A DNA stretch of 64,000 bases from Amphibalanus amphitrite (lineage: Eukaryota > Arthropoda > Thecostraca > Balanomorpha > Balanidae). Position numbers and translations under genes: made by a program. Location of the stretch: NCBI RefSeq assembly GCF_019059575.1, contig NW_024882210.1, forward strand, positions 1 to 64,000. The letters run 5' to 3'. How positions within the stretch are numbered: position 1 is the stretch's first letter; the number at the start of each line of letters is the position of its first letter. Of the stretch, positions 1 to 54,700 are shown in pieces. The notes beneath the pieces were generated by a model. The model was not told where the DNA came from. It searched no databases and saw only the letters and a list, made by a program, of their open reading frames with translations.

Positions 1-3000
1 TGCGAAAACCGTTATTTTCGACGGGTACCAAATAAAAACTTTATTTACCGTCCGATCGGGCTGAAACTTACACAAAACATGTGCGCCACACAAGGATGCG
101 TCACAATCAACAAAATCGCCGATCGAGGTCAAAGGTCAAGGTCATATTTGCGAAAAACCGTTATTTTTCGACGGGGTACCAAATAAAAACTTTATTTACC
201 GTCCGATCGGGCTGAAACTTACACAAAACATGTGCCGCCACACAAGGATGCGTCACAATCAACAAAATCGCCGATCGAGGTCAAAGGTCAAGGTCATATT
301 TGCGAAAAACCGTTATTTTTCGACGGGGTACCAAATAAAAACTTTATTTACCGTCCGATCGGGCTGAAACTTACACAAAACATGTGCCGCCACACAAGGA
401 TGCGTCACAATCAACAAAATCGCCGATCGAGGTCAAAGGTCAAGGTCATATTTGCGAAAAACCGTTATTTTTCGACGGGGTACCAAATAAAAACTTTATT
501 TACCGTCCGATCGGGCTGAAACTTACACAAAACATGTGCCGCCCACAAGGATGCGTCACAATCAACAAAATCGCCGATCGAGGTCAAAGGTCAAGGTCAT
601 ATTTGCGAAAAACCGTTATTTTTCGACGGGGTACCAAATAAAAACTTTATTTACCGTCCGATCGGGCTGAAACTTACAAAAACATGTGCCGCCACACAAG
701 GATGCGTCACAATCAACAAAATCGCCGATCGAGGTCAAAGGTCAAGGTCATATTTGCGAAAAACCGTTATTTTTCGACGGGGTACCAAATAAAAACTTTA
801 TTTACCGTCCGATCGGGCTGAAACTTACACAAAACATGTGCCGCCACACAAGGATGCGTCACAATCAACAAAATCGCCGATCGAGGTCAAAGGTCAAGGT
901 CATATTTGCGAAAAACCGTTATTTTTCGACGGGGTACCAAATAAAAACTTTATTTACCGTCCGATCGGGCTGAAACTTACACAAAACATGTGCCGCCACA
1001 CAAGGATGCGTCACAATCAACAAAATCGCCGATCGAGGTCAAAGGTCAAGGTCATATTTGCGAAAAACCGTTATTTTTCGACGGGGTACCAAATAAAACT
1101 TTATTTACCGTCCGATCGGGCTGAAACTTACACAAAACATGTGCCGCCACACAAGGATGCGTCACAATCAACAAAATCGCCGATCGAGGTCAAAGGTCAA
1201 GGTCATATTTGCGAAAAACCGTTATTTTTCGACGGGGTACCAAATAAAAACTTTATTTACCGTCCGATCGGGCTGAAACTTACACAAAACATGTGCCGCC
1301 ACACAAGGATGCGTCACAATCAACAAAATCGCCGATCGAGGTCAAAGGTCAAGGTCATATTTGCGAAAAACCGTTATTTTTCGACGGGGTACCAAATAAA
1401 AACTTTATTTACCGTCCGATCGGGCTGAAACTTACACAAAACATGTGCCGCCACACAAGGATGCGTCACAATCAACAAAATCGCCGATCGAGGTCAAAGG
1501 TCAAGGTCATATTTGCGAAAAAACCGTTATTTTTCGACGGGGTACCAAATAAAAACTTTATTTACCGTCCGATCGGGCTGAAACTTACACAAAACATGTG
1601 CCGCCACACAAGGATGCGTCACAATCAACAAAATCGCCGATCGAGGTCAAAGGTCAAGGTCATATTTGCGAAAAACCGTTATTTTCGACGGGGTACCAAA
1701 TAAAAACTTTATTTACCGTCCGATCGGGCTGAAACTTACACAAAACATGTGCCGCCACACAAGGATGCGTCACAATCAACAAAATCGCCGATCGAGGTCA
1801 AAGGTCAAGGTCATATTTGCGAAAAACCGTTATTTTTCGACGGGGTACCAAATAAAAACTTTATTTACCGTCCGATCGGGCTGAAACTTACACAAAACAT
1901 GTGCCGCCACACAAGGATGCGTCACAATCAACAAAATCGCCGATCGAGGTCAAAGGTCAAGGTCATATTTGCGAAAAACCGTTATTTTTCGACGGGGTAC
2001 CAAATAAAAACTTTATTTACCGTCCGATCGGGCTGAAACTTACACAAAACATGTGCCGCCACACAAGGATGCGTCACAATCAACAAAATCGCCGATCGAG
2101 GTCAAAGGTCAAGGTCATATTTGCGAAAAACCGTTATTTTTCGACGGGGTACCAAATAAAACTTTATTTTACCGTCCGATCGGGCTGAAACTTACACAAA
2201 ACATGTGCCGCCACACAAGGATGCGTCACAATCAACAAAATCGCCGATCGAGGTCAAAGGTCAAGGTCATATTTGCGAAAAACCGTTATTTTTCGACGGG
2301 GTACCAAATAAAAACTTTATTTACCGTCCGATCGGGCTGAAACTTACACAAAACATGTGCCGCCACACAAGGATGCGTCACAATCAACAAAATCGCCGAT
2401 CGAGGTCAAAGGTCAAGGTCATATTTGCGAAAAACCGTTATTTTTCGACGGGGTACCAAATAAAAACTTTATTTACCGTCCGATCGGGCTGAAACTTACA
2501 CAAAACATGTGCCGCCACACAAGGATGCGTCACAATCAACAAAATCGCCGATCGAGGTCAAAGGTCAAGGTCATATTTGCGAAAAACCGTTATTTTTCGA
2601 CGGGGTACCAAATAAAAACTTTATTTACCGTCCGATCGGGCTGAAACTTACACAAAACATGTGCCGCCACACAAGGATGCGTCACAATCAACAAAATCGC
2701 CGATCGAGGTCAAAGGTCAAGGTCATATTTGCGAAAAACCGTTATTTTTCGACGGGGTACCAAATAAAAACTTTATTTACCGTCCGATCGGGCTGAAACT
2801 TACACAAAACATGTGCCGCCACACAAGGATGCGTCACAATCAACAAAATCGCCGATCGAGGTCAAAGGTCAAGGTCATATTTGCGAAAAACCGTTATTTT
2901 TCGACGGGGTACCAAATAAAAACTTTATTTACCGTCCGATCGGGCTGAAACTTACACAAAACATGTGCCGCCACACAAGGATGCGTCACAATCAACAAAA

Positions 3001-6000
3001 TCGCCGATCGAGGTCAAAGGTCAAGGTCATATTTGCGAAAAACCGTTATTTTTCGACGGGGTACCAAATAAAACTTTATTTACCGTCCGATCGGGCTGCA
3101 AACTTACACAAAACATGTGCCGCCACACAAGGATGCGTCACAATCAACAAAATCGCCGATCGAGGTCAAAGGTCAAGGTCATATTTGCGAAAAACCGTTA
3201 TTTTTCGACGGGGTACCAAATAAAAACTTTATTTACCGTCCGATCGGGCTGCAAACTTACACAAAACATGTGCCGCCACACAAGGATGCGTCACAATCAA
3301 CAAAATCGCCGATCGAGGTCAAAGGTCAAGGTCATATTTGCGAAAAACCGTTATTTTTCGACGGGGTACCAAATAAAAACTTTATTTACCGTCCGATCGG
3401 GCTGAAACTTACACAAAACATGTGCCGCCACACAAGGATGCGTCACAATCAACAAAATCGCCGATCGAGGTCAAAGGTCAAGGTCATATTTGCGAAAAAC
3501 CGTTATTTTTCGACGGGGTACCAAATAAAAACTTTATTTACCGTCCGATCGGGCTGAAACTTACACAAAACATGTGCCGCCACACAAGGATGCGTCACAA
3601 TCAACAAAATCGCCGATCGAGGTCAAAGGTCAAGGTCATATTTGCGAAAAACCGTTATTTTTCGACGGGGTACCAAATAAAAACTTTATTTACCGTCCGA
3701 TCGGGCTGAAACTTACACAAAACATGTGCCGCCACACAAGGATGCGTCACAATCAACAAAATCGCCGATCGAGGTCAAAGGTCAAGGTCATATTTGCGAA
3801 AAACCGTTATTTTTCGACGGGGTACCAAATAAAACTTTATTTACCGTCCGATCGGGCTGAAACTTACACAAAACATGTGCCGCCACACAAGGATGCGTCA
3901 CAATCAACAAAATCGCCGATCGAGGTCAAAGGTCAAGGTCATATTTGCGAAAAACCGTTATTTTTCGACGGGGTACCAAATAAAAACTTTATTTACCGTC
4001 CGATCGGGCTGAAACTTACACAAAACATGTGCCGCCACACAAGGATGCGTCACAATCAACAAAATCGCCGATCGAGGTCAAAGGTCAAGGTCATATTTGC
4101 GAAAAACCGTTATTTTTCGACGGGGTACCAAATAAAAACTTTATTTACCGTCCGATCGGGCTGAAACTTACACAAAACATGTGCCGCCACACAAGGATGC
4201 GTCAGCAATCAACAAAATCGCCGATCGAGGTCAAAGGTCAAGGTCATATTTGCGAAAAACCGTTATTTTTCGACGGGGTACCAAATAAAAACTTTATTTA
4301 CCGTCCGATCGGGCTGAAACTTACACAAAACATGTGCCGCCACACAAGGATGCGTCACAATCGACAAAATCGCCGATCGAGGTCAAAGGTCAAGGTCATA
4401 TTTGCGAAAAACCGTTATTTTTCGACGGGGTACCAAATAAAAACTTTATTTACCGTCCGATCGGGCTGAAACTTCACAAAACATGTGCCGCCTCACAAGG
4501 ATGCGTCACAATCAACAAAATCGCCGATCTAGGTCAAAGGTCAAGGTCATATTTTCGAAAAACCGTTATTTTTCGACGGGGTACCAAATAAAAACTTTAT
4601 TTACCGTCCGATCGGGCTGAAACTTACACAAAACATGTGCCGCCTCACAAGGATGCGTCACAATCAACAAAATCGCCGATCGAGGTCAAAGGTCAAGGTC
4701 ATATTTGCGAAAAACCGTTATTTTTCGACGGGGTACCAAATAAAAACTTTATTTACCGTCCGATCAGGCTGAAACTTACACAAAACATGTGCCGCCACAC
4801 AAGGATGCGTCACAATTAACAAAATCGCCGATCGAGGTCAAAGGTCAAGGTCATATTTGCGAAAAACCGTTATTTTTCGACGGGGTACCAAATAAAAACT
4901 TTATTTACCTTCCGATCGGGCTGAAACTTACACAAAACATGTGCCGCCACACAAGGATGCGTCACAATCAACAAAATCGCCGATCGAGGTCAAAGGTCAA
5001 GGTCATATTTGCGAAAAACCGTTATTTTTCGACGGGGTACCAAAAATAACGGTTTTTCGCAAATATGACCTTGACCTTTGACCTCGATCGGCGATTTTGT
5101 TGATTGTGACGCATCCTTGTGAGGCGGTACATGTTTTGTGTAAGTTTCACCCCGATCGGACGGTAAATAAAGTTTTTATTTGGTACCCCGTCGAAAAATA
5201 ACGGTTTTTCGCAAATATGACCTTGACCTTTGACCTCGATCGGCGATTTTGTTGATTGTGACGCATCCTTGTGTGGCGGCACATGTTTTGTGTAAGTTTC
5301 AGCCCGATCGGACGGTAAATAAAGTTTTTATTTGGTACCCCGTCGAAAAATAACGGTTTTTCGCAAATATGACCTTGACCTTTGACCTCGATCGGCGATT
5401 TTGTTGATTGTGACGCATCGTTGTGTGGCGGCACATGTTTTGTGTAAGTTTGAGCCCGATCGGACGGTAAATAAAGTTTTTATTTGGTACCCCGTCGAAA
5501 AATAACGGTTTTTCGCAAATATGACCTTGACCTTTGACCTCGATCGGCGATTTTGTTGATTGTGACGCATCCTTGTGAGGCGGCACATGTTTTGTGTAAG
5601 TTTCAGCCCGATCGGACGGTAAATAAAGTTTTTATTTGGTACCCCGTCGAAAAATAACGGTTTTTCGCAAATATTACCTTGACCTTTGACCTCGATCGGC
5701 GATTTTTTTTATTGTGACGCATCCTTGTGTGGCGGCACATGTTTTGTGTAAGTTTCAGCCCGATCGGACGGTAAATAAAGGTTTTATTTGGTACCCCGTC
5801 GAAAAATAACGGTTTTTCGCAAATATGACCTTGACCTTTGACCTCGATCGGCGATTTTGTTGATTGTGACGCATCCTTGTGTGGCGGCACATGTTTTGTG
5901 TAAGTTTCAGCCCGATCGGACGGTAAATAAAGTTTTTATTTGGTACCCCGTCGAAAAATAACGGTTTTTCGCAAATATGACCTTGACCTTTGACCTCGAT

Positions 6001-8062
6001 CGGCAATTTTGTTGATTGTGACGCATCCTTGTGTGGCGGCACATGTTTTGTGTAAGTTTCAGCCCGATCAGACGGTAAATAAAGTTTTTATTTGGTACCC
6101 CGTCGAAAAATAACGGTTTTTCGCAAATATGACCTTGACCTTTGACCTTGATCGGCGATTTTGTTGATTGTGACGCATCCTTGTGTGGCGGCACATGTTT
6201 TGTGTAAGTTTCAGCCCGATCGGACGGTAAATAAAGTTTTTATTTGGTACCCCGTCGAAAAATAACGGTTTTTCGCAAATATGACCTTGACCTTTGACCT
6301 CGATCGGCGATTTTGTTGATTGTGACGCATCCTTGTGTGGCGGCACATGTTTTGTGTAAGTTTGAGCCCGATCAGACGGTAAATAAAGTTTTTATTTGGT
6401 ACCCCGTCGAAAAATAACGGTTTTTCGCAAATATGACCTTGACCTTTGACCTTGATCGGCGATTTTGTTGATTGTGACGCATCCTTGTGTGGCGGCACAT
6501 GTTTTGTGTAAGTTTGAGCCCGATCGGACGGTAAATAAAGTTTTTATTTGGTACCCCGTCGAAAAATAACGGTTTTTCGCAAATATGACCTTGACCTTTG
6601 ACCTCGATCGGCGATTTTGTTGATTGTGACGCATCCTTGTGTGGCTGCACATGTTTTGTGTAAGTTTCAGCTTGATCGGACGGTAAATAAAGCTTTTATT
6701 TGGTACCCCGTCGAAAAATACCGGTTTTTCGCAAATATGACCTTGACCTTTGACCTCGATCGGCGATTTTGTTGATTGTGACGCATCCTTGTGTGGCGGC
6801 ACATGTTTTGTGTAAGTTTCAGCCCGATCGGACGGTAAATAAAGTTTTTATTTGGTACCCTGTCGAAAAATAACGGTTTTTCGCAAATATGACCTTGACC
6901 TTTGACCTCGATCGGCGATTTTGTTGATAGTGACGCATCCTTGTGTGGCGGCACATGTTTTGTGTAAGTTTGAGCCCGATCGGACGGTAAATAAAGTTTT
7001 TATTTGGTACCCCGTCGAAAAATTACGGTTTTTTCGCAAATATGACCTTGACCTTTGACCTCGATCGGCGATTTTGTTTATTGTGACGCATCCTTGTGTG
7101 GCGGCACATGTTTTGTGTAAGTTTGAGCCCGATCGGACGGTAAATAAAGTTTTTATTTGGTACCCCGTCGAAAAATAACGGTTTTTTCGCAAATATGACC
7201 TTGACCTTTGACCTCGATCGGCGATTTTGTTGATTGTGACGCATCCTTGTGAGGCGGCACATGTTTTGTGTAAGTTTCAGCCCGATCGGACGGTAAATAA
7301 AGTTTTTATTTGGTACCCCGTCGAAAAATAACGGTTTTTCGCAAATATGACCTTGACCTTTGACCTCGATCGGCGATTTTGTTGATTGTGACGCATCCTT
7401 GTGTGGCGGCACATGTTTTGTGTAAGTTTCAGCCCGATCGGACGGTAAATAAAGTTTTTATTTGGTACCCCGTCGAAAAATAACGGTTTTTCGCAAATAT
7501 GACCTTGACCTTTGACCTCGATCGGCAATTTTGTTGATTGTGACGCATCCTTGTGTGGCGGCACATGTTTTGTGTAAGTTTCAGCCCGATCGGACGGTAA
7601 ATAAAGTTTTTATTTGGTACCCCGTCGAAAAATAACGGTTTTTCGCAAATATGACCTTGACCTTTGACCTCGATCGGCGATTTTGTTGATTGTGACGCAT
7701 CCTTGTGTGGCGGCACATGTTTTGTGTAAGTTTCAGCCCGATCGGACGGTAAATAAAGTTTTTATTTGGTACCCCGTCGAAAAATAACGGTTTTTCGCAA
7801 ATATGACCTTGACGTTTGACCTCGATCGGCGATTTTGTTGATTGTGACGCATCCTTGTGTGGCGGCACATGTTTTGTGTAAGTTTCAGCCCGATCGGACG
7901 GTAAAAAAAGTTCTTATTTGGTACCCCGTCGAAAAATAACGGTTTTTCGCAAATATGACCTTGACCTTTGACCTCGATCGGTGATTTTGTTGATTGTGAC
8001 GCATCCTTGTGTGGCGGCACATGTTTTGTGTAAGTTTCAGCCCGATCGGACGGTAAATAAAG
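1..8062. repeat. 152-bp satellite array with internal inversion
   Basis: A tandem array with a 152-bp period fills this stretch; it starts before the window and stops near 8062, where the unit breaks off into unrelated sequence. Units 1-5040 run in one direction (about 33 copies, nearly identical, mostly single-base indels). Units 5041-8062 are reverse-complemented (about 20 copies, with more substitutions). Every unit carries AGGTCAAAGGTCAAGGTCA (first complete copy at 126-144), two CGATCG sites and one GGTACC. Reading frames run open through one or two units, but 152 is not a multiple of 3, the frames shift at each unit, and both strands look alike, so this is not coding. The length is near one nucleosome, as in many centromeric or heterochromatic satellites; that role is inferred. 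Confidence 0.97.
5020..5062. repeat. Satellite inversion junction (palindrome centre)
   Basis: Here the satellite changes direction. The arms gcgaaaaaccgttattt and aaataacggtttttcgc face each other across a 16-base spacer containing GGTACC. Compared with normal units, the join lies in a short run of A shared by both sides, which suggests end joining at A-rich microhomology. Units on either side are not mirror images base for base, which argues against a read folded back on itself. Confidence 0.85.
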
Positions 8063-11000
8063 AAGTACCTTATTGTTGTTTATAGCCAGAGTGGTTTTTG
8101 CCCCTAGAGGTCAAAATATTTGACCTAGGAAAAAATGAGTGATATTTTTGGAATCAGCGTGTCAAGATCTCTCGGTTGGCGTAGTTTGGCGATGTTTTGA
8201 ACTCGACGCTGAAAACGAATACGAATACGACGCTAACTTGATGGACATCTCGCAGACGGCCGTCGCGACACTGGACGGTAACAGACTCCCAGACTGCACC
8301 GAGATGGACTTCCAGACTGGATCTGAACTCCACCCAGACTGTCATTGATGCCTCCTATCCTGAGTCCCAGACTGACGTTCTGCACGCTGGTCAGTGGTCA
8401 CACCAGACGCCCTACGACCATTCGCCACTAAACCGCTGCCGGCTGATGACCGGCAGTATTGTCGGCGTGACCTACGGGGGCGGGCTGCTACCGGTTGGGC
8501 GCGGTCAGGCCAAACCTAACTCCCCTCGTCACGGCGAGGCCAGCCGGACCGGGCGGGCGGCGCCTCCGCCCACCACCGCCGGCGCTGCGGCCGTGAGCTG
8601 CCTCCCAATTGACCGGCGGAGTCACTCGACCGACCGCCGCTCGTCCAGGGGCGGCCCGGGCCAACGGGCGGCTCCCCGCGGCGCCGCTGCTCGTCTCACC
8701 GGGAGAGGCGCCGCGGAGGTCGGCCGCTGAACCGTCCGGAGAGCGCCGCACCGTGACTCATCACGGCGCTGTTCGCCGGTGACGCCACGCTAACTTGTTA
8801 GCCGGGAATGCAGGCCGCTCAGCGATGCTGGTGAGTGATTTGGCCGCATTTCCTTCCTCGGCGGAGCCAATTGGTCGGCACGCTACCGCGCTCAGTTGAT
8901 GGAAGCGAACCCGGAAAATCGGCCCGTGCACGCGTCGCTTCCCGGCTGCTGAGCCACAAACAAAGACGAGCAATTACGCTCCGCGACTAAAAGACGCTTC
9001 CAGCTGCGGAAAACAGGTTCCCGGTAGCAAAAGGCATCACTCGACATTTCCCAGATGCACTCATGACGAAGGAAGGCTGGTCGGTTGCCAGAATGGGCCC
9101 CAAACGAGCCGGCTGAGTGTCGTGCCGGTGTGACCCGGCCGAGTAGGCGGCGCTATGATTGGAAATGGGCACACCCGACAGGAAGGAAGTCGCTGAGACT
9201 GGAGCTCCCGCTGCCGACAGCTGGCTCGGTCTGACCGGGCCCCAGCCGGAACTGTGGGACTGGCAGCGAGTGCTGTCATAATGGACTGAGCGAGAAGACA
9301 CATTGCGGATGCCGTACGGCACGGATTTCCCACAAGATAAGGTATGACTGGATATCGATCTCAGTAATAAGGCGCAGCGCAGCAGACGCCGTCTGTAATA
9401 TTGTGCGGCATCTCCGGCTCAGTGCGTCCCCGACAGCGCGGGGGACGATGGAGGTTGGGAGGGGAGGAGAGAGGCCCTCGGCGGGGGATGAGCCAGGTCG
9501 CAGACCGGCCGCCGCCGCTGCCGCCGCGACCATTCAGCCGTGCAGCATCGCGTGGCCGATTTCGAAACCAGGGCCTCTGGGTGTTGGCCAACTTATGCGG
9601 ACGGCTGGCGCCAGCCATCACGCGGCGGCGACACGTCTCCGCCGGAAGAGCGCGAGTGGCCGCCGCCCGCGACGCTTTCCCGGGCCGCCCGCCGCCGCCC
9701 GCGCCGCCGCGGTGACGGGCGGCACGCCGAAAACGCGGCGACACAGCACTAACGACGCGCCCGCCGGATTCCTGTTAAAAACCGATTCGTCACCGGCGAG
9801 TGACGGTCGTGATTGGGCCGTCGGCCGACCGACCGGCCGCGCTGGCACCGCTCGGTCTCTCCGGCCATCATTAAGCGGCTCATAAAATGAACGGTAACGA
9901 CTGGCCAGCGTCCAACTGCTAATGGTTTTTGTGTTAGTTTAATGAGAGTGCGGTATCACGGCGCGGCGCTGGTTAATGACTCACCGACCGGTGGCGCCGG
10001 CCGGCCGGAGCCGACCATATCGGGCCGACCGCACCGCGCGCCCGCTCGGTCGGCCGGCCCATCGCGCGCTCAGAGCTGCCGATAATGGCGCGACTCGAGC
10101 GGTCGACATCCTCGGGCCTCGGCGGCTCGACCCGGCGCGGCGGAAACGGGCCATATCGAGTGCAGCGTCCGGTCAGCCCCGTCCACCGCGCGCACCGGCC
10201 CGATCGCCGGCCGGCCGCCATGCTAATAGAATTAATCACTTAATTGATGAGCCGATAACGATCCTCGCGTCAATCCTGACACGAATTATGGCATGCGGGC
10301 GACGTGGCGCGACGGGAGCGCGTCAGGCTCGCCGCGGGGAGCACTCCCGGGGCGCGTCGCCGGCGTCGCACGTGCAGAGCACACGGAGCGTCCCCTCCGG
10401 CCTCCACCGGCGGGCAGCGCGCGCGTCGGCGGACGCCACTAATTGCGGTGCCGCCTCGTCGCCAACGTCGTTGTTCGGCGCGGCGGGGGTCGGCTGAGCC
10501 GGAGGAGAGTTCTGGATGGCACGTTCTGGCGCGCCGGTCGATTTCAAAGGACCGCCGGGGCGCTGCACAACTCATCGTCTGCAAGCGGTACAAGACTGCG
10601 CGGCGCAGCTGGTCTGCCAGGCGCGCTGCCAGTCGACTCCTCAGAGGTGGTCCCCGAGCGGCCGCTCGGCCCGTGCGACGGACCACTAGTGATGATCGTG
10701 CTGCCCGGTCGATGGACTGTCGCGAATCTGGTCGCCACACAACAACGGACACGGGAGAAGATTGAAACGGCGATCAGCCTGCGAGCGGCAGATCGCATAA
10801 ATGAAGAGAAGCGGCGTGGGTGGAATAAATGTGTATGAAAATCGGCGGCTTAGAGCCCTATTACGCTCTGGTCACAAGAGACGAAATTGCCTGATGGTCT
10901 AGTTCGGCAAACTGTACTGGCAAACCCCTCCCCAAACTGGCAAACCCCTCCCCACGGGCGACTTCAGTTCTCATCCCGCGCGGCCTTGCTGCCAAACAAA

Positions 11001-23038: not shown

Positions 23039-24010
23039 TCAGTCATGGTCGGAGAAGGCCAGACAGGTGAGCGCCTTGGTGTGCCCCTTGTAGGTGCGCA
23101 CCACACTGCCCGTCTCCAGGTTCCACAGGCGCGCCTGCTCGTCGGACGAGGCGGTGAACAGGTACTTTGAGTCCGACGAGAACGCGCAGTCCCACACCCA
23201 GCGCTGCGTCTCGTCCTTGTTGCGCCACTCGAGCGTCTTTACCAGCGAGTAGTCTTTGGTGGACCATATTTTGGCCGTGTGGTCGGCCGAGGTAGTGCAC
23301 AGCAGCTGGCCGTCCGCCGAAAAGCGGCACTTGAGTCCGTATCGGGTGTGCGCCTCCAGCCGGCGTTTGGGCGTGATCTGCACGGGCGCCTGGTCGGTGG
23401 CGCCGTCCGACAGGCTCCAGATGTAGCAGCTGCCGCGCGAGTTGATGGCGGCCATCTGACGGCCGCTGCTGTCGATGTCGATGTGCTGGAACGCCGCGTC
23501 CGGCTCGGGGATGAGCTTGTCGTGCTGGTCGGAGCGCAGGTCCCACTGGTGGATGGTGCCCGCCTGGTCGCCGATAAACAGCTCCACCTGGTTCGGGTGG
23601 AGCACGATGCACGTCATCGGCTGGTCCACCTGAAACACGCGCTGGCAGTGCAGCCCACCGGTCTTCACGTCCCAGATTTTGGCCGAGCGGTCCTCGCTAG
23701 CAGTGAACATGCACCGGCCGTCGCGCAGGAAACCCACGCCCACCACGTTCTTACTGACGCCCTCAAAGTTGATGATGGGGCTCATGTCTGTGGAGTTGAC
23801 ATCGTACATGCGCACGTGCTGGTAGCCGGCGGCGGCCAGCAGCGTACGGTCCGGCTGGAACGTGAGCGCGTTCACCTGCGAGTCCTGGTGCTGGCAGGTG
23901 CGCTTACACACGCCCGTGTGCGGCTCCCAGAACTTGATGGTGTGGTCGTAGCCGGCGGTGGCCAGCAGAATGGCGTCCGACGAGGACACCCCGTCCGAGC
24001 AGACGCTCAT
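23039..24010 (-). CDS. MLST8: LST8 homologue, TOR complex WD40 subunit
   Basis: A 323-residue, seven-bladed WD40 protein, the length expected for LST8 (human about 326). LST8 binds the kinase domain of TOR and is a core subunit of TORC1 and TORC2, acting in the cytosol and at lysosomal membranes in growth control. Family-specific stretches are ILLATAGYDHT (14-24), QHQDSQVNAL (40-49), AAAGYQHVRMYD (59-70), LHPNQVELFIGDQ (137-149), LIPEPD (166-171), AHTRYGLKCRFS (220-231), TSADHTAKIW (240-249) and TASSDEQARLW (286-296). The ATG at 24008-24010 is chosen because it sits in GCCGCCACCATG, an ideal Kozak context, and is the first in-frame ATG after the stop at 24068-24070. The reading frame has no intron; a retrocopy or a naturally single-exon gene are both possible. 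There is no frameshift or premature stop. Confidence 0.95.
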   Translation of the reverse strand: MSVCSDGVSSSDAILLATAGYDHTIKFWEPHTGVCKRTCQHQDSQVNALTFQPDRTLLAAAGYQHVRMYDVNSTDMSPIINFEGVSKNVVGVGFLRDGRCMFTASEDRSAKIWDVKTGGLHCQRVFQVDQPMTCIVLHPNQVELFIGDQAGTIHQWDLRSDQHDKLIPEPDAAFQHIDIDSSGRQMAAINSRGSCYIWSLSDGATDQAPVQITPKRRLEAHTRYGLKCRFSADGQLLCTTSADHTAKIWSTKDYSLVKTLEWRNKDETQRWVWDCAFSSDSKYLFTASSDEQARLWNLETGSVVRTYKGHTKALTCLAFSDHD

Positions 24011-24070
24011 GGTGGCGGCGCGCGGGCAGCCTGAGACAGACGGGGACACCGGCGGGCTGTCATAACACTA
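24001..24070 (-). promoter_or_regulatory. Kozak context and 5' leader of LST8
   Basis: The start codon is preceded by GCCGCCACC, matching the animal optimum at every position. The same frame reaches back only to a TAG at 24068-24070 with no other ATG, which fixes the start. No TATA box is obvious in the next 300 bases. Confidence 0.75.
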
Positions 24071-33735: not shown

Positions 33736-43266
<9,531 letters not shown>

Positions 43267-43908: not shown

Positions 43909-45979
43909 CTGAAAGAAAGGCGGACATCAGTACAAACGACAACAGCGGCTCACAGCTCAGTATCAGCTGGTCATACACTATCCAAAGTCAGACACATCAA
44001 TGGTCGCTTTCGAATCATCGTAGGAAATTTATTTTGTGCACGATATACTGTCAATCAATTTCCATCAATAATCACCTTCCGAACCCGAACTTCCGAACCC
44101 GCGATGGTCGTAGAAAGACGGGGTAAACGGCAATCAAAAGCTCTCAACAAGGCGGATCTTAAGAGCCCAAATTCTTTTGCTTAAGTAGGTCAGAGGTCAG
44201 GTCAAAGTCAGGTCAAGGGTACAAAATGCAAGTTTCTACAGTATCGGCCTTGCACCGTAGTTGCCGAAGAATGGACTGAGACTGATTGCCCAAAACGTGT
44301 TTTAGACTACCAAGACAATATTCGTTGCATACAATGTCATTCAAAGGTCAAGGTCAAGGTCAAGTTCAGGTCAGGTCAGGTCACCAAAAACAAAATATAG
44401 AAAAGGGCATGTGCGACACATGCTTTATGGGTCATTTTACTCATAGAATTCAATGGGCACACTCAATAAGTGATATGGACCACCTCTGGATGAATTTCAG
44501 GTCAAAGTCAGGTCAAGGTCAGGTCAAGTGAGGTCAAATTTTAAAGTTGGTTGTTAAGGCCTAAAAAGGTGTCTATCTGATGCAGTTTTTCACGGCGAAT
44601 CGAATGGTGCTATTTTTGTTTCCGTAAGAGGTCTAGAACTTCCAAAAAAATTATTTTTTTTTTTCCAAAATTCTGCGTGTCGTGATGTCATAAAATTTTG
44701 AATAACTCCCACATTTTTGAACCGATTCTTCTAAAAATTGGTATGTACAGGCACGTAGCTAGGATTTGGCCAAGGGAGGGGCGGAGGAATCCCGGGGGCC
44801 TCCTTTCTACAGAGGGCCTCCTCCCTAAAGGGGCCTCCTTTCTACAGAGGGTCTCATGCCTACATATGTAATTACATATACAACATAATGCAGACTTTTG
44901 TTCAGCTTTCATATGGCCAGCGCACTGGTATGTTTCTTTATTCTTACCGCTGTCGCGGTAAGAAACATACGCATATCACAAGTCTCCCAGTGGCATGGTA
45001 ACTGGCAAAAAAAAAAAAAAAACTCGGGCGCCGGCGGCCGGACCGCAGCAGGAGGGGGGGGGGGGGGAGGATCTGCGAGGAATGGATGGATACTGGATGA
45101 CGGTCAGAGTACCTAACACTTGGTGTATTATCATATATCGTTCAAGCGCTTAACCGTATTCCGGGCGGGCTCTGAAAGACTGAATCGGGCGGGGGCCTTT
45201 TTGGCCCCCGTCAGAACTCGAAAAGCACGAATCGTAGCGACAAACGGCAACGGCGTTTGATAGTTCGTTGAACGACTTACAACTTTTGTAAACAACTTTT
45301 TTGGGTCAGGTCAATATTGAGGTCGCCAGAGGTCATAACAAATAACATGGTTTATAACGACCTACATAGATAGTTCAACTTCAAAATCTGACCTAGGAAG
45401 GTCACGCTGGGTACCAATCGGCGCGTCATGACCAGGCGAATGGTTTGGTACACTAACAACTATCTAGCCCCATCATGTCGTGATTTATTGGCTAAAAACT
45501 GTTGATGACCTCACCTCACCTCAGATGATCCTCCCCGGTGCCCCTGTCAGTAAATGCCACCTGGGTGCTTACAGATCAGATAATCTGACCTGACGTACCT
45601 AATTCAGAAGGAATTGGGTGGTTTTGATTCGTTTTCTCGAAGCAGGACACAGTTCATTATATTTTCCAATAGGCTTGTCACGATTCTGACCTGACTGACG
45701 TCTGCAAGATTAAAACTATACGGTTATCAATTTTTTATGTGTGAATGATGCCACGTTTACTTGCTGTAAGTAAAACATGGTTTCGTTAGTAAATTTTCCT
45801 ATGGTCCAGGTGGTTTGCTTCATTTACGCCGTAGATGAAACAAACAATCGATGGATAGGTATATATTAATTTCCCGGTCAAATAAATTATTATGAGTTGT
45901 GCGAAGCATGGCTATGGGAATATCACCACGGTCTGATAAATGGTTTGGGTAATTGCATCCATCGTAAAAATACCAACAC

Positions 45980-47311: not shown

Positions 47312-50300
47312 ACCCTCGCCCGCCGAGGGGGAGGGGGGCCGGGGGTGACGACTGCCGCCCCCTTCCCCCATAGGGTCTTTTTCGCAATAGCTCCGAACAC
47401 GCTGGCGATAAAGAGAGATGAAACTTGGCATACGGGGCATTCCACGATAGATCGACGAAAGCCGTACACCCTCATATTTTATTTTTTGCTTAAAATTGGT
47501 CTAATGGCTTGTTATGGGCGGGGAAGCCAGCTGTGCCAAGGATTTTTTTTCTCCGAACAACTGTTTCCGAGATATAGCCTCAGGCAATTCCTGGAGGTCA
47601 CGCTGCAACCCTATGTTTGGCGGCTTTTAACTCAGAAACTATTGGTTTTCTATGGTAAAAACTTTATATGGTTCAACTTGCAATCAACCAGCAAACGTTT
47701 TGGCTATCCCGGATTTTCGATTTTTGAAAATTTTGATCACGTGACATCTTGATCTTTTTTTCGAAGAGTGACATTTATATTTTCCCAGCTGAAAGTCGCA
47801 ATTTTGTCTGATGACGATTAAAGCCTTATCAATTGTCATTCATATGCGACAATAAAAAAGTGGCTTTCGGCCTGCATCAGGTCTGCATCGGCCTGAGATC
47901 AGGTCATTTTTTGACCTGTCCTTTATAAGTCAATGGCAGAAATATCGGCTACCACCGAAACGCATCTGACCGGTTCAAATACTTTTGAATCATGTTGAGT
48001 TAGGCTATTATTGATGGAACTGGTGCAGCTTTGTATCAGTGACCCGCTGAAAGGTCATCCTCGGTCACGCGTTGAACACACAATAATTTTCCGTTTTTGG
48101 CTGTACCTTTTGATCTAATAAAGAAAGGGACGTAGAATAAGCACCAATCCGTTTGCTTTCACCTAGCGCCAGTTCGTTTTGAATCTCGATACCGATGACC
48201 TGAGGTCAGGTCAATTTCTTGACCACCCTATTATAAGTCAATTGGGGAAAAATCAGCTCCCTTATTTTTACACTAAAAAGCGTCAGAATTGCCTAATATA
48301 CCATGAGTGACTCCAAATGCGACTAACTTTGACTACCTTGAGACCTTTTTTGCTCTTGGTCAACTGTGACGTTGGTCTTGGGTCATGTGACGTTATTAAA
48401 GGTCACCAAATGTTTTTTTGCTAATAACTCCTTACAGGTTTGAGATACAGCCGCGCGGATAGGCTCATTGTGTTCAGCTCGTCATGGCCCATCGAATGAT
48501 ATATATGATGACCTTAAGGTCACGTGACCTAAGGTCAACTTTTGACCTTGACCCTTCGAGGTCAACATACACATGTTTCGATGCGGATCGACGAGAGGAT
48601 CACGATGGTGCTATTAGTTTGTTCCTAGCTGGGATACTTCGAAAGTTATTCGAGAAAAACTTCATATACATGTAGTGCCGCCATTTAGACTTTCTTTTTA
48701 CCCCTGTGACGTCATCTTTGACCTGACCTGAAAATGACCTGAGTAAAAATTGTAGACCTTATCCATGTGTACCCTGTGCCGTATACCGCTTGTCGCTATC
48801 TTGCTTTGTTCTCGAGATCTCGCTGTCGGTCCCGCTCGTAATAATGGGAAGGTCATAAAAATGACCTGACCTGAGGTCAACGCAGGCCGAAAGCCACTTT
48901 TTTATTATCGCATATGAATGACAATTGATAAGGCTTTAATCGTCATCAGACAAAATTGCGACTTTCAGTTAGGAAAATATCAAGGTCACTCTTCGAAAAA
49001 AGGTCAAGATGTCACGTGATCAAAATTTTCAAAAATCGAAAATCCGAGATAGCCAAAACGTTTTTTGGTTGATTGCGAGTTGAACCATATCAAGTTTTTA
49101 CCATAGAAAACCAATAGTTTCTGAGTTATAAGCCGTCAAACATAGGGTTGCAGCAGTGTCCTGATTTTCGTGAATTTGGGTGGAAACCCACACCCGAACA
49201 GATTCTCTTTGCGACGTCCCGGAAAGCCAAACGACGTCCCTGACAGATAAAAGTCGACAGGTATATCGAACACTAAAAGCAAACTAACAAAAAGAAATAT
49301 CACCTCTGTGGCCTAAAAACACAGCTATGCAAAATGATAATAAATATATCCCAAGGCCTCACAAACCCACTCTTATACTCAACTCCCGTTTCCTACACCG
49401 CTGGCAAGGCCATAGACCGCTGGCCAACCGCCCAACAGTAAACAACGCGGTTTTATTTTCGTTTTCTGTGCGTCAGATATGTATAGTTTTTTCCTTTATC
49501 ATGTGAAGGTAATAGCTGTCATATGAAGGAGAAAAGACGTTGGAATAGAGGGATCTGAGGACGTCGTTTTCCACTTTTCAGTTTTAGTAACTGTGCAGTG
49601 TATAGATAAAAATGAATCATGCGAATATATTACTTCGACATTTATCTATAAGCACACAACATACCTTTTGTATCAAATCACTGTAACATATTTAATTATT
49701 TTTTCCCCTCAGAAGGTCACAGTAACGGGGTAGCGCTGCCCCTTGAACCTACCCTTCAAAAGTAGTTAATTTTGCATATGTTGATAGTAGTTGGGGAAAA
49801 AGTTTGTGTTTGTTTATTTGAATTAAAATAAAGTTACCGAATTTCAACAGTTTTAATTAAAGTATGTCGTCCTTGGCTTAAAAATACACGTTATGTTGGG
49901 GACGTCGATTGACCTTGTCATTCCCATTAAATCGACGTCGGTACAAAACTGAAAAGTGCACAATGATTTCACATTTTTTCCAGCCAAGAAAAATTCAGCG
50001 TCTACCTTGGAGTTTTCTTAATTGAATTTCATAACAGGAAGCTATGGAAATTAATATTCCTAACTGTTTTCCACCTCTTTGTTTGGACGTCTGCTTTTTT
50101 ACGTCACTCCTCTTGCTCGATATAATATCCCTCTTATGACGTCAATATTTAGTGATAGCCGCTGGCTCTTGGGCTGATTTTTGTTGAAGCATATTTGTTA
50201 TTGACTTGTGTACGATCATGGACAAGAACTAGACATCTTCAAAGTGTTGTTTTGGTGTTTGTGGTGAATGATTGAAATTTATATTGTACTAGGGGTAAAC

Positions 50301-51763: not shown

Positions 51764-54700
51764 CTGCACGGCACACCCGCACACCACTTCACTTATACGG
51801 ACACACACCGCTTTACTCGTACAAACCTACACTCACGCCACCAAATGAAAACCGTGAGAAACTAGCTACACGCCAGATGGATCGCAACTAGTGTCGCCAC
51901 GCCAAAGCCGTAATCACCACGCCATATGTGGAAGGCTTTTGATGTCAATACATACATACATACATACATACATACATACATACATACATACATACATGCA
52001 TACATACATACAACTAAGCACGATAGCATATGTGACACTTAACCCGCGCCCCGTAGGGGGGGGGGGGCCGAAACGGCCCCTCCCTGTCCTTTTCGGTCGA
52101 TATCTCCTAAACGGCTGGAGATATCGCCACCAAACTTTCAGGACCCCTCCGGGCATCAATTTTACACATTGTGATCAAAAATTTTTCCAGAGGCTATGAT
52201 AGGTTGGCCACAAATGACGTCAGAGTGACGTCATGTTCTGTCATTTTCGACCGAAAAAAGACCTTCGCGAGAAGACCTGTCAGGACTACAGCTTTGAAGA
52301 TACAGAAAAATGATCAAGACATAAAAGGTGTAGAATTGACAGGGCTACAAAACTGCTATCTCGAATTTTTGAATTTTTTTAGTTTTGACCCCCAAAAACC
52401 AAAAAAGCATTTTTTTGGATATATTCGCCAAAAAATCCAAAAAGTTTTTTGAGTTTCGAAAAAACTGGAATATATGTGATAGTGCCTACCGTCTTCTATC
52501 TACATACCAAATTTCAGATCGATACCACGTTTTTTGGCCAAGTTATAGCGAAAAAACTGTTCAAAAATGATGACGTCAAATTTTCAAACTCAATTTTTGG
52601 CAATTCTAGAACTCGTAGAGCAAAACGAAGACCACCATTAGACTCCCCGTGACGAGCTGCATCGAATCGATACCCATTTTATGCAAAAATATCAACTTTG
52701 AAATTTGACCTAATTTGACCTGACCTTGACCTGACCTTCACAAAAACGTGACCTAGGCTGGCCCCAAAGGCTGCCTAACCCACATAATCGCATTTGTCAT
52801 GTAAAATGGACCATAAAACATGTATCACACGACACATTCATATTGTGACCCCCGGTGACCTGACCTCGCTGTGACCTGACCTGGTATCAGTGACCTCAGA
52901 TAGCAAGGTATGTGTTTGACGAACAATGTACCATCGATGGTTTTCAATAAATTACCAATTTACTCGCTTTCACAGCACATTTCTTGAATTGCCTGTGAAC
53001 GGTGAAAATCTGACCTTTGACCTGACCTGTGACGTCATCGGTTTGACCTAGGTCAATGAAATTTGGTCACAAGGTAGTTCCCGGGTGGGGCTATCGAACG
53101 CCGTTTGAATTTTGAAAATCGGCCGGTAACTTTCCGAGATCTTAGGGGGGGGGGGCCGAAACGGCCCCCCCCTACGGGTGGTAGGGTCCGCCGGTAGCCC
53201 TACGGGGCGCGGGTTAAGCGTAGGTACTATCAGCTTATTAGAAAAGCGAACGGTAGGTTGCGTCTGATTTTGCACAGAATATCTCTATTAGCATAATAAT
53301 GGTCTAGGTCATAAAGAGACCAGAATAGTATCAACTTCAACTAATTCATCCCCAAGTCGTTCATATCGATATAAACGCTGCGCTGTTACAACCAGCGACA
53401 AAAAGAGCCAAACAGATGTGAAAATAACTCCCAACCAACGTTAAGCCCTCAACGTCGTAGCTACGGTAGCTACTATCAGGCCGGAGCGAGCACAGTGGCC
53501 ACGCAGCCATGACACAGTGACCCAGTCCAGGTGGGCTTCTCACCGGCGCACATATCGGCCACCAGCCGGTCGACGGCCGACTCCTGGCCTCGCGGCGGCT
53601 CATCGGGATCGGTCTGAGTGCTCACGGTGCAGCGGGTGACCGGCCGGGCGGCAGGAGCGGCGCGCTCCTCAGCGGCCGTCTCCTCAAACACCCGGAGCCT
53701 GGTGACAGCAACGTACATCAGTTATCAGAGAATGCATGGCGCTCTAGCTAGGAAATGGTGGTAGGACAGTCTCCCAGGGTTCTGAAAGAAAGGTCTGCGG
53801 CCGGAATTCTGACTTGTCACTGATCATCAATACCTAACTGGCCCAGGGTATGTACTATAGTGCGACCTGGACAAAATGCAGCTGAATGCCTTCAAAAATC
53901 CACTCGTAAGCGGACTGCAGAAGACTTGGAGTTTTATCAGTGTCAAGATCTCAGATGCTGGACAATCTGGTGTGCGGGATGCTTTAACATATTAATCATG
54001 AAGTGTGTCAGGATAGGAGGAAAATGAGTTGCAGACACACGAGGGACCGATCATCACATGTTTAACTACAAAGCGGTGGTAGAAGAAATCAATTTCGAGA
54101 CACACCGTGGAGTATCAGACTCCCGAGAGCAAAAGCAGATTCGTGTTGCGCTCCGGTGTTCGACAGGTGTGATCAAAGTAAAGGTGTAACAATAATTTCA
54201 CATGACTGAGATGGTGTGTCGCTGGTGGGATCATCCATGGTCAGTTGAGGTCGGTGGGCAAAACAGATCATGCTCAGCTATGTGGCCATGGTAAACTTTG
54301 ACTTCAAAGTTCCCGCGAGCTCGGAATTTGACGATCAGTAAACAGATTAAGACACATTGAACAAGCTGTGTATGTATATGGTGGGCTCTGAATTCCTCAA
54401 TCTATCGACTAAAAAGAACTGAAAATAGCAGCTAGCACCCAACTATCCCTATCACAGTAGATGAAAGCAACATTTATTGTTGACCTGACCTGAGACTGAG
54501 AGGGTTTGACAGGTTTGACATTTGACAGGTAAAATGGGGTATCTTTCACTTGCAACATGACAAAGGATCTGTGAGTTCTATTGCTCAGTCATTGCATTAT
54601 TTGTAACGAAATGAAATACTACATAGGCTGACCCATAGTCCTGGGGAGTGCCCTTCTCCCCTGGACTGTCAACAATGATGAAATCATGAGGTGCCACCAA

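Follow-up and report, generated by a model that had tools for sequence, protein, structure and literature searches.

Tetris of Drosophila virilis is a non-autonomous foldback element with a unique outer domain and ~220-bp tandem repeats within its terminal inverted repeats (TIRs). In the excerpts of PMC4079207 used here, its target duplications are 8-10 bp long and its repeats are also found in satellite-like arrays. Galileo has one THAP site ~70 bp from its end and more in its TIR tandem repeats (excerpts of PMC3688188), and 8-11-bp target duplications are given for Mutator and Rehavkus elements, the latter with a minisatellite (excerpts of PMC6446971). Transposons may also carry receptor sites, as described in part of PMC1785376 for Alu-borne DR2 receptor elements and in part of PMC11102866 for mouse SINE B1, where NR5A2 recognizes a TCAAGG motif and binds nucleosomes. 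Here we analyse the first 64,000 nucleotides of contig NW_024882210.1 of the arthropod Amphibalanus amphitrite (the window; C713:1-64000), which opens with a tandem array of 152-bp units rich in the hexamer AGGTCA (positions 1-8062). The array is almost certainly a pair of long TIRs belonging to a non-autonomous foldback DNA transposon with 9-bp target duplications. On balance we lean towards reading its AGGTCA clusters as cis-acting sites, perhaps for a host factor.

Architecture and copies of the foldback element

The array consists of two convergent arms. Positions 1-5041 (forward strand) form the inner left arm, with 33 motif-bearing units; the contig begins within this arm and so lacks its outer end and the left terminus. 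Unit polarity flips at the fold-back junction (5041/5042), and the right arm (5042-8062, reverse strand) contains 20 reversed units and ends at unit position CTTTATTTACCG. A terminal domain follows at 8063-8248 (reverse strand), reading ATGTCCATCAAGTTAGCG... leftwards from 8248 and including an AGGTCA/TGACCT inverted pair of half-sites at 8104-8128. The right copy of a 9-bp target-site duplication is placed by position at 8249-8257 (forward strand), the left copy being absent from the assembly. The first-pass annotation had described a satellite array; its period and motif hold, but the polarity flip had been missed.

A 19-base motif, AGGTCAAAGGTCAAGGTCA, is present in all 53 units, exactly in 51 and with single mismatches at 5674 and 7804, where a dinucleotide shuffle of the whole window predicts 0.02 occurrences. 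The array contains 157 AGGTCA half-sites, close to the 160 first estimated, and the earlier statement that each unit carries the motif is likewise borne out. The grammar of nuclear-receptor response elements comprises direct-repeat (DR) arrangements such as DR1 and DR0 and a 5' extension. By sequence, the half-sites of the array have this arrangement, in DR1/DR0 order with TCAAGGTCA. Substitutions were counted over 51 unit intervals (32 forward and 19 reversed, from the 53 motifs). There are 45 in total, divided between the forward arm (12 in 32 intervals) and the reversed arm (33 in 19); two fall within the motif, where 5.6 would be expected from its length. The diverged units in which the motif was said to be kept therefore do not exist here, and since the units are near-identical, retention of the motif within the window shows recent amplification only. 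Single-base indels are distributed differently from substitutions, with 11 in the forward arm and two in the reversed arm, a mixture that may be due to assembly polishing or to different ages of the arms.

Exact copies of the motif number 975 in the 807.6-Mb assembly, against one copy of a reversed-pattern control. Among the matches listed, all arrays, on 13 contigs, have forward units on the left and reversed units on the right, and three isolated motifs lie outside arrays. We searched for the terminus using window positions 8063-8250 as the query and scored the best 40 of 252 candidates. This gave at least 41 matches, corresponding to 21 near-identical loci and two diverged loci (C194 and C692). 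The ~186-bp terminus (ATGTCCATCAAG...) is present at both ends of 17 of the 21 near-identical loci, always convergent (forward on the left, reverse on the right) and 5-13 kb apart; three of the remaining loci have one end only, and C816 has a truncated left end. Arrays are visible at 15 of the 21 loci, and near-complete termini among the matches listed are 95-98% identical to that of the window.

The ends of the arrays are fixed. At eight of nine array ends compared (six contigs), the units meet the terminus at the same position, CTTTATTTACCG, and the terminus at these eight ends extends up to ~187 bp with 94.9-100% identity between copies. The ninth end belongs to C816, a deletion copy that retains only the first 18 terminus bases. 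Beyond the terminus the flanks are mutually unrelated at all nine ends. In 12 flank pairs compared by eye, 11 share at least 9 bp at the ends of ATGTCC...GGACAT, and C116 shares only 7 bp. Inverted termini, convergent arrays and target duplications at unrelated sites together identify a foldback transposon. An autonomous satellite was considered and rejected, the array boundaries being set by the terminus at all ends but that of the deletion copy, and the satellite of the first-pass annotation is thus replaced by a transposon with a fixed terminus and target duplications at many unrelated sites. Arm lengths are unequal (1.4 and 10.4 kb in C433, for example), and the fold-back junction sequence differs in each of eight copies examined, so the element does not inherit its centre as a core. 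The foldback copies read showed no coding core.

Individual copies show further features. In C931, a ~1.9-kb non-unit stretch (47425-49293, read apart from one 253-bp piece) starts with GGGTAAGGTGCCTAATTAGCGACC and ends in its reverse complement; with its own inverted repeat at both ends, it is probably a nested transposon insertion. The C699 copy is inserted, by eye, in another repeat that is also present in the window near 31.78 kb. C574 and C920, which have common unit spacing, may be alleles of one locus. Outside this genome, the 19-mer was found in one viral contig only, with surroundings unrelated by eye, and in no phage; a 24-mer search of a genome-contig collection gave no match.

A sister family shares this architecture. 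A 32-base pattern from the start of the terminus finds 76 + 91 termini genome-wide, which have C or A at one base; 100 of these 167 were listed. The four A-type copies read (C27, C408, C663 and C262) all have convergent 152-bp units, with AGGTCAAGGTCATAGGTCAAGGTCAAGGTCA (five half-sites) in the typical unit; rearrangements affect parts of C663 and C27. The two families have 31 of the first 32 terminus bases in common, together with the block CCTAGGTCAAA...TTTGACCT and the terminal AGGTCA inverted pair. In a global alignment of the two units, the motif is identical at 19 of 19 positions and the 131 spacer bases at 53%. The spacers give a local score of 29, against 25 for the best of 500 shuffles, and by this measure we regard their homology as real. 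Target duplications of exactly 9 bp flank two of the four sister copies, a third has one with an indel and the fourth has none. The C262 copy spans ~24.6 kb between termini; the part of it that was read contains 765 half-sites, with no gap greater than 200 bp between them. No open frame of 150 codons or more is present in C27, C408 or C262 (C663 was not scanned). An autonomous partner may lie among the termini beyond the 100 of 167 listed.

AGGTCA clusters elsewhere in the genome

The AGGTCA excess extends well beyond the foldback family, and we consider it more interesting than the nature of the array itself. In 20 stretches of 2 kb on other contigs (40 kb, at positions picked by round numbers rather than at random), AGGTCA occurs 132 times against 18.0 expected, a 7.3-fold excess that ranks first among 2080 hexamers. 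The sample is patchy: a single array of ~143-bp units supplies 40 of the 132 occurrences, and 11 of the 20 stretches hold one or two only. This second array (C240:150001-152000) has three AGGTCA per unit and is unlike the window unit by eye. Outside its own array, the window has 159 AGGTCA where 26 are expected. Window flank and sampled stretches together contain 289, against 30-96 for its one-base neighbours (13 of 18 counted).

These half-sites are clustered with a regular phase. Leaving aside the 143-bp array, here and in the extension counts below, there are 249 half-sites in 50 clusters, some of them in window repeat copies that are not independent. Among successive clusters no more than 600 bp apart, 19 of 32 are separated by 130-185 bp (~160 bp), against a null mean of 10.6%, and distances between half-site pairs peak at 140-180 and 300-360 bp. 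Several kinds of repeat carry the clusters. A 1.18-kb element flanked by TTAA, with TIR TTAACCCGCGCCCCGTAGGG and ends TTAACCCGCGCCCC, occupies window positions 36161-37342 (forward strand) and has three AGGTCA clusters ~150 bp apart; a second, inverted copy, 97% identical, lies at 52039-53217 (reverse strand). The element is high-copy, with 4229 candidate places in the genome, the best 40 of which scored 96-100% identical. Three further clusters ~155 bp apart are found at 44187-44536 (forward strand), a stretch that ends in sequence ~75% identical to a portion of the TTAA-flanked element. Clusters are therefore also carried by elements whose target duplications are unlike those of the foldback family.

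Two features of the window lie apart from these repeats. A 342-codon single open reading frame (23039-24067, reverse strand), without introns in this stretch, encodes WD40 repeats and by eye appears mLST8-like; searches of the window for Rfam families and tRNA genes gave no match. Elsewhere in the assembly, a 15.7-kb mitochondrial contig has COX1, read with code 5, in the order cox1-trnL-cox2-atp-cox3-nad3, nad5-nad4-nad4L reversed, nad6-cytb and nad1 reversed (genes beyond COX1 and two tRNAs were named by eye), which we take to be the pancrustacean pattern.

Constraint on the motif and its candidate binding proteins

The first-pass annotation had proposed comparing substitution at the motif bases with that in the rest of the unit, and the outcome depends on the depth of the comparison: the equal variation that it named as refuting evidence is seen inside the family but not between families. 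Within the window's family, in 229 units located by an anchor (fewer than all those present in the loci), 24 of 4351 motif bases are changed (0.55%) against 213 of 30457 spacer bases (0.70%; p = 0.46 by site), and unique changes give the same result (20 in the motif, 112 in the spacer, p = 0.36). Recently landed copies drift freely, so this comparison is no test of what the motif does in transposition. Older, diverged copies show a motif identity of 142/158 against 1088/1374 in the spacer (Fisher p = 0.001, with sites not independent); this set comprises five loci, one of which (C140) contributes spacer bases only, and overlapping alignments were skipped. Between the two families, the motif is the best-kept window of the unit, alone with its immediate neighbours. 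A fair reading, from these alignments, would be that the motif is kept as families evolve but is not protected in single copies.

Proteins that might recognize AGGTCA are well represented. There are 77 zf-C4 matches in the genome, and the 20 loci translated include what we take to be HR3, FTZ-F1 (two), HR39 (two), HR38, HR4, HR78, SVP, RXR/USP, E75, E78 and EcR. Four of the DNA-binding domains have ROR-gamma, NR5A2, RXR-alpha and the ecdysone receptor as their best matches among solved structures. Many receptor exons are found twice, with equal scores on two different contigs; both haplotypes are therefore probably assembled in part, which would inflate copy counts. Transposase genes of Mutator-like elements (MULEs) are also abundant, with long open frames and at least 111 PF10551 matches (150 of 204 candidates scored), and possibly active. 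Its 9-bp duplication, within the 8-11-bp range, suggests that the foldback family is Mutator-like, with no transposase tied to it.

Each arm of the element consists of a short unique terminus and a run of 152-bp units, variable in number and directed towards the centre. We propose the following model. Unequal exchange or gap repair would alter the length of the array, and the centre would be remade in each copy. The AGGTCA cluster of the unit and the terminal inverted pair would be cis-acting protein sites, selected as element families diverged; a cis-site function is likely. The bound protein, of which we are less sure, would be a host factor that recognizes AGGTCA; the most plausible choice is a nuclear receptor expressed in the germline or early embryo. 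An FTZ-F1/NR5-type receptor is a candidate, its binding preference fitting the TCAAGGTCA of each unit. Such a receptor would open the element or aid its transcription and mobility, and multiple sites would raise local occupancy. The satellite-like array would then be a by-product of transposon architecture rather than a host-made structure. Elements with different target duplications share the AGGTCA sites, and we therefore prefer a host factor, with modest confidence. A broader version is offered tentatively, as a conjecture that may well prove wrong: the 9-bp-duplication foldback elements, the TTAA-flanked elements and the 143-bp array might all use nucleosome-spaced AGGTCA clusters to dock a host pioneer nuclear receptor, an arthropod equivalent of NR5A2 acting at SINE B1 in the mouse, making a receptor half-site the commonest word of the genome relative to expectation.

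Several observations weigh against this model. In the window flank AGGTCA ranks only fifth of 2080 hexamers, behind AT and GA microsatellite words. Outside the foldback family, the commonest arrangement (36 of 130 adjacent pairs) is the overlapping AGGTCAGGTCA, which cannot be shared by two receptors, and the NR5-type TCA extension accompanies only 17 of 248 sites. Spacing across the genome clusters is a mixture of direct, inverted and everted repeats, with neither consistent spacing nor a consistent 5' extension; there is no single receptor grammar outside the family. The motif of the young family is conserved no better than its spacer, and in the old copies the motif window ranks only 16th of 152, with other blocks equally conserved. 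A 32-base spacer theme is repeated close to the clusters of several families, including the TTAA-flanked element, with 11 matches against 0.3 in shuffles. This theme was chosen by eye from two families, which supply some of the 11 matches, and was searched without indels; it suggests that the clusters may have descended, at least partly, from one old module rather than arising as independent gains. Finally, at one of four MULE loci read, the C791 gene is flanked by a 29-bp inverted repeat, 93% identical, that itself holds AGGTCA.

The last observation favours a transposase link and slightly raises our estimate of the strongest alternative, though we still think it unlikely: that the clusters are binding sites for the element's own unseen transposase, multiplied for specificity and avidity. 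The sites lie in the TIR units as well as the terminus, the sister families have both conserved, MULE transposases are plentiful, and the THAP sites in the long TIRs of Galileo provide a precedent (excerpts of PMC3688188). The same clusters occur, however, in TTAA-flanked elements, which should use another transposase, and the four MULE loci read (5.5 kb each, of 111) have no terminus matching that of the foldback family, the best agreeing at 17-19 of 32 bases. A neutral origin is also doubtful. Here GGTCA-rich, microsatellite-like sequence would grow by slippage and hitch-hike in amplifying repeats, with no protein involved. Steps of 5, 6 and 7 bp resemble slippage, the motif and spacer substitute alike within the family, and recent amplification alone accounts for uniform units. 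Slippage does not, however, produce adjacent half-sites in opposite orientation, as in 40 of 130 pairs outside the foldback family, and neither the 19/19 motif against a 53% spacer nor the ~160-bp phasing sits easily with it; the telomere-like pentamer pair AGGTTAGGTT has 0 occurrences. A telomere-like origin from AGGTT repeats was likewise discarded, with 0 occurrences.

Least probable by far is the original proposal of a host-kept satellite that titrates or recruits an orphan receptor or ties satellite RNA to moulting: some 160 half-sites in 8 kb and the presence of relevant receptor genes speak for it, but the arrays stop at transposon termini, which are accompanied by target duplications at scattered sites, and young copies show no extra conservation of the motif. 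Parts of that proposal could survive within the transposon model preferred here. It is possible that the array recruits or titrates a nuclear receptor, an idea made more interesting by the genome-wide AGGTCA excess, and a link to moulting would be possible in principle in an arthropod host with EcR-like and FTZ-F1-like genes.

Comparison with known systems

The Drosophila FB element is a foldback transposon whose long TIRs are internally repetitive. The element described here resembles FB and Galileo in this respect, and in having repeats with protein-binding sites, which are putative here. In the excerpts of PMC3688188, it is the THAP domain of Galileo itself that binds the Galileo sites. The present element has no transposase linked to it, and AGGTCA doubles as a half-site of host receptors. 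The search of open-licence PMC literature gave no paper on AGGTCA satellites or crustacean foldback elements among the matches listed.

The consequences differ with the protein bound. Should a host receptor bind the clusters, mobile elements will have flooded an arthropod genome with the nucleosome-spaced sites of a developmental transcription factor. Such a genome would lend itself to studying the use that transposons make of pioneer factors, the reason for repeats in foldback TIRs and the origin of satellites within transposons. Should a transposase bind them instead, they would provide a sequence handle on foldback mobilisation. On either reading, 'satellite' arrays centred on a fold-back are worth checking for transposon ends.

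As far as the excerpts of PMC4079207 go, Tetris is a close parallel: it too is non-autonomous, with a unique outer domain, tandem repeats in its TIRs, similar target duplications and satellite-like arrays. It differs from the present element, which has 152-bp units, kilobase arms and AGGTCA clusters in every unit, and no middle domain in the copies read. The 9-bp target duplications are like those of Mutator and Rehavkus (excerpts of PMC6446971), but the foldback copies read here contain no transposase. As with the DR2 elements of Alu (part of PMC1785376) and the NR5A2 sites of SINE B1 (part of PMC11102866), transposons appear to have spread receptor half-sites; unlike in those systems, the putative sites here are carried by several element types, in clusters ~160 bp apart, and AGGTCA is the top hexamer of the genome sample.

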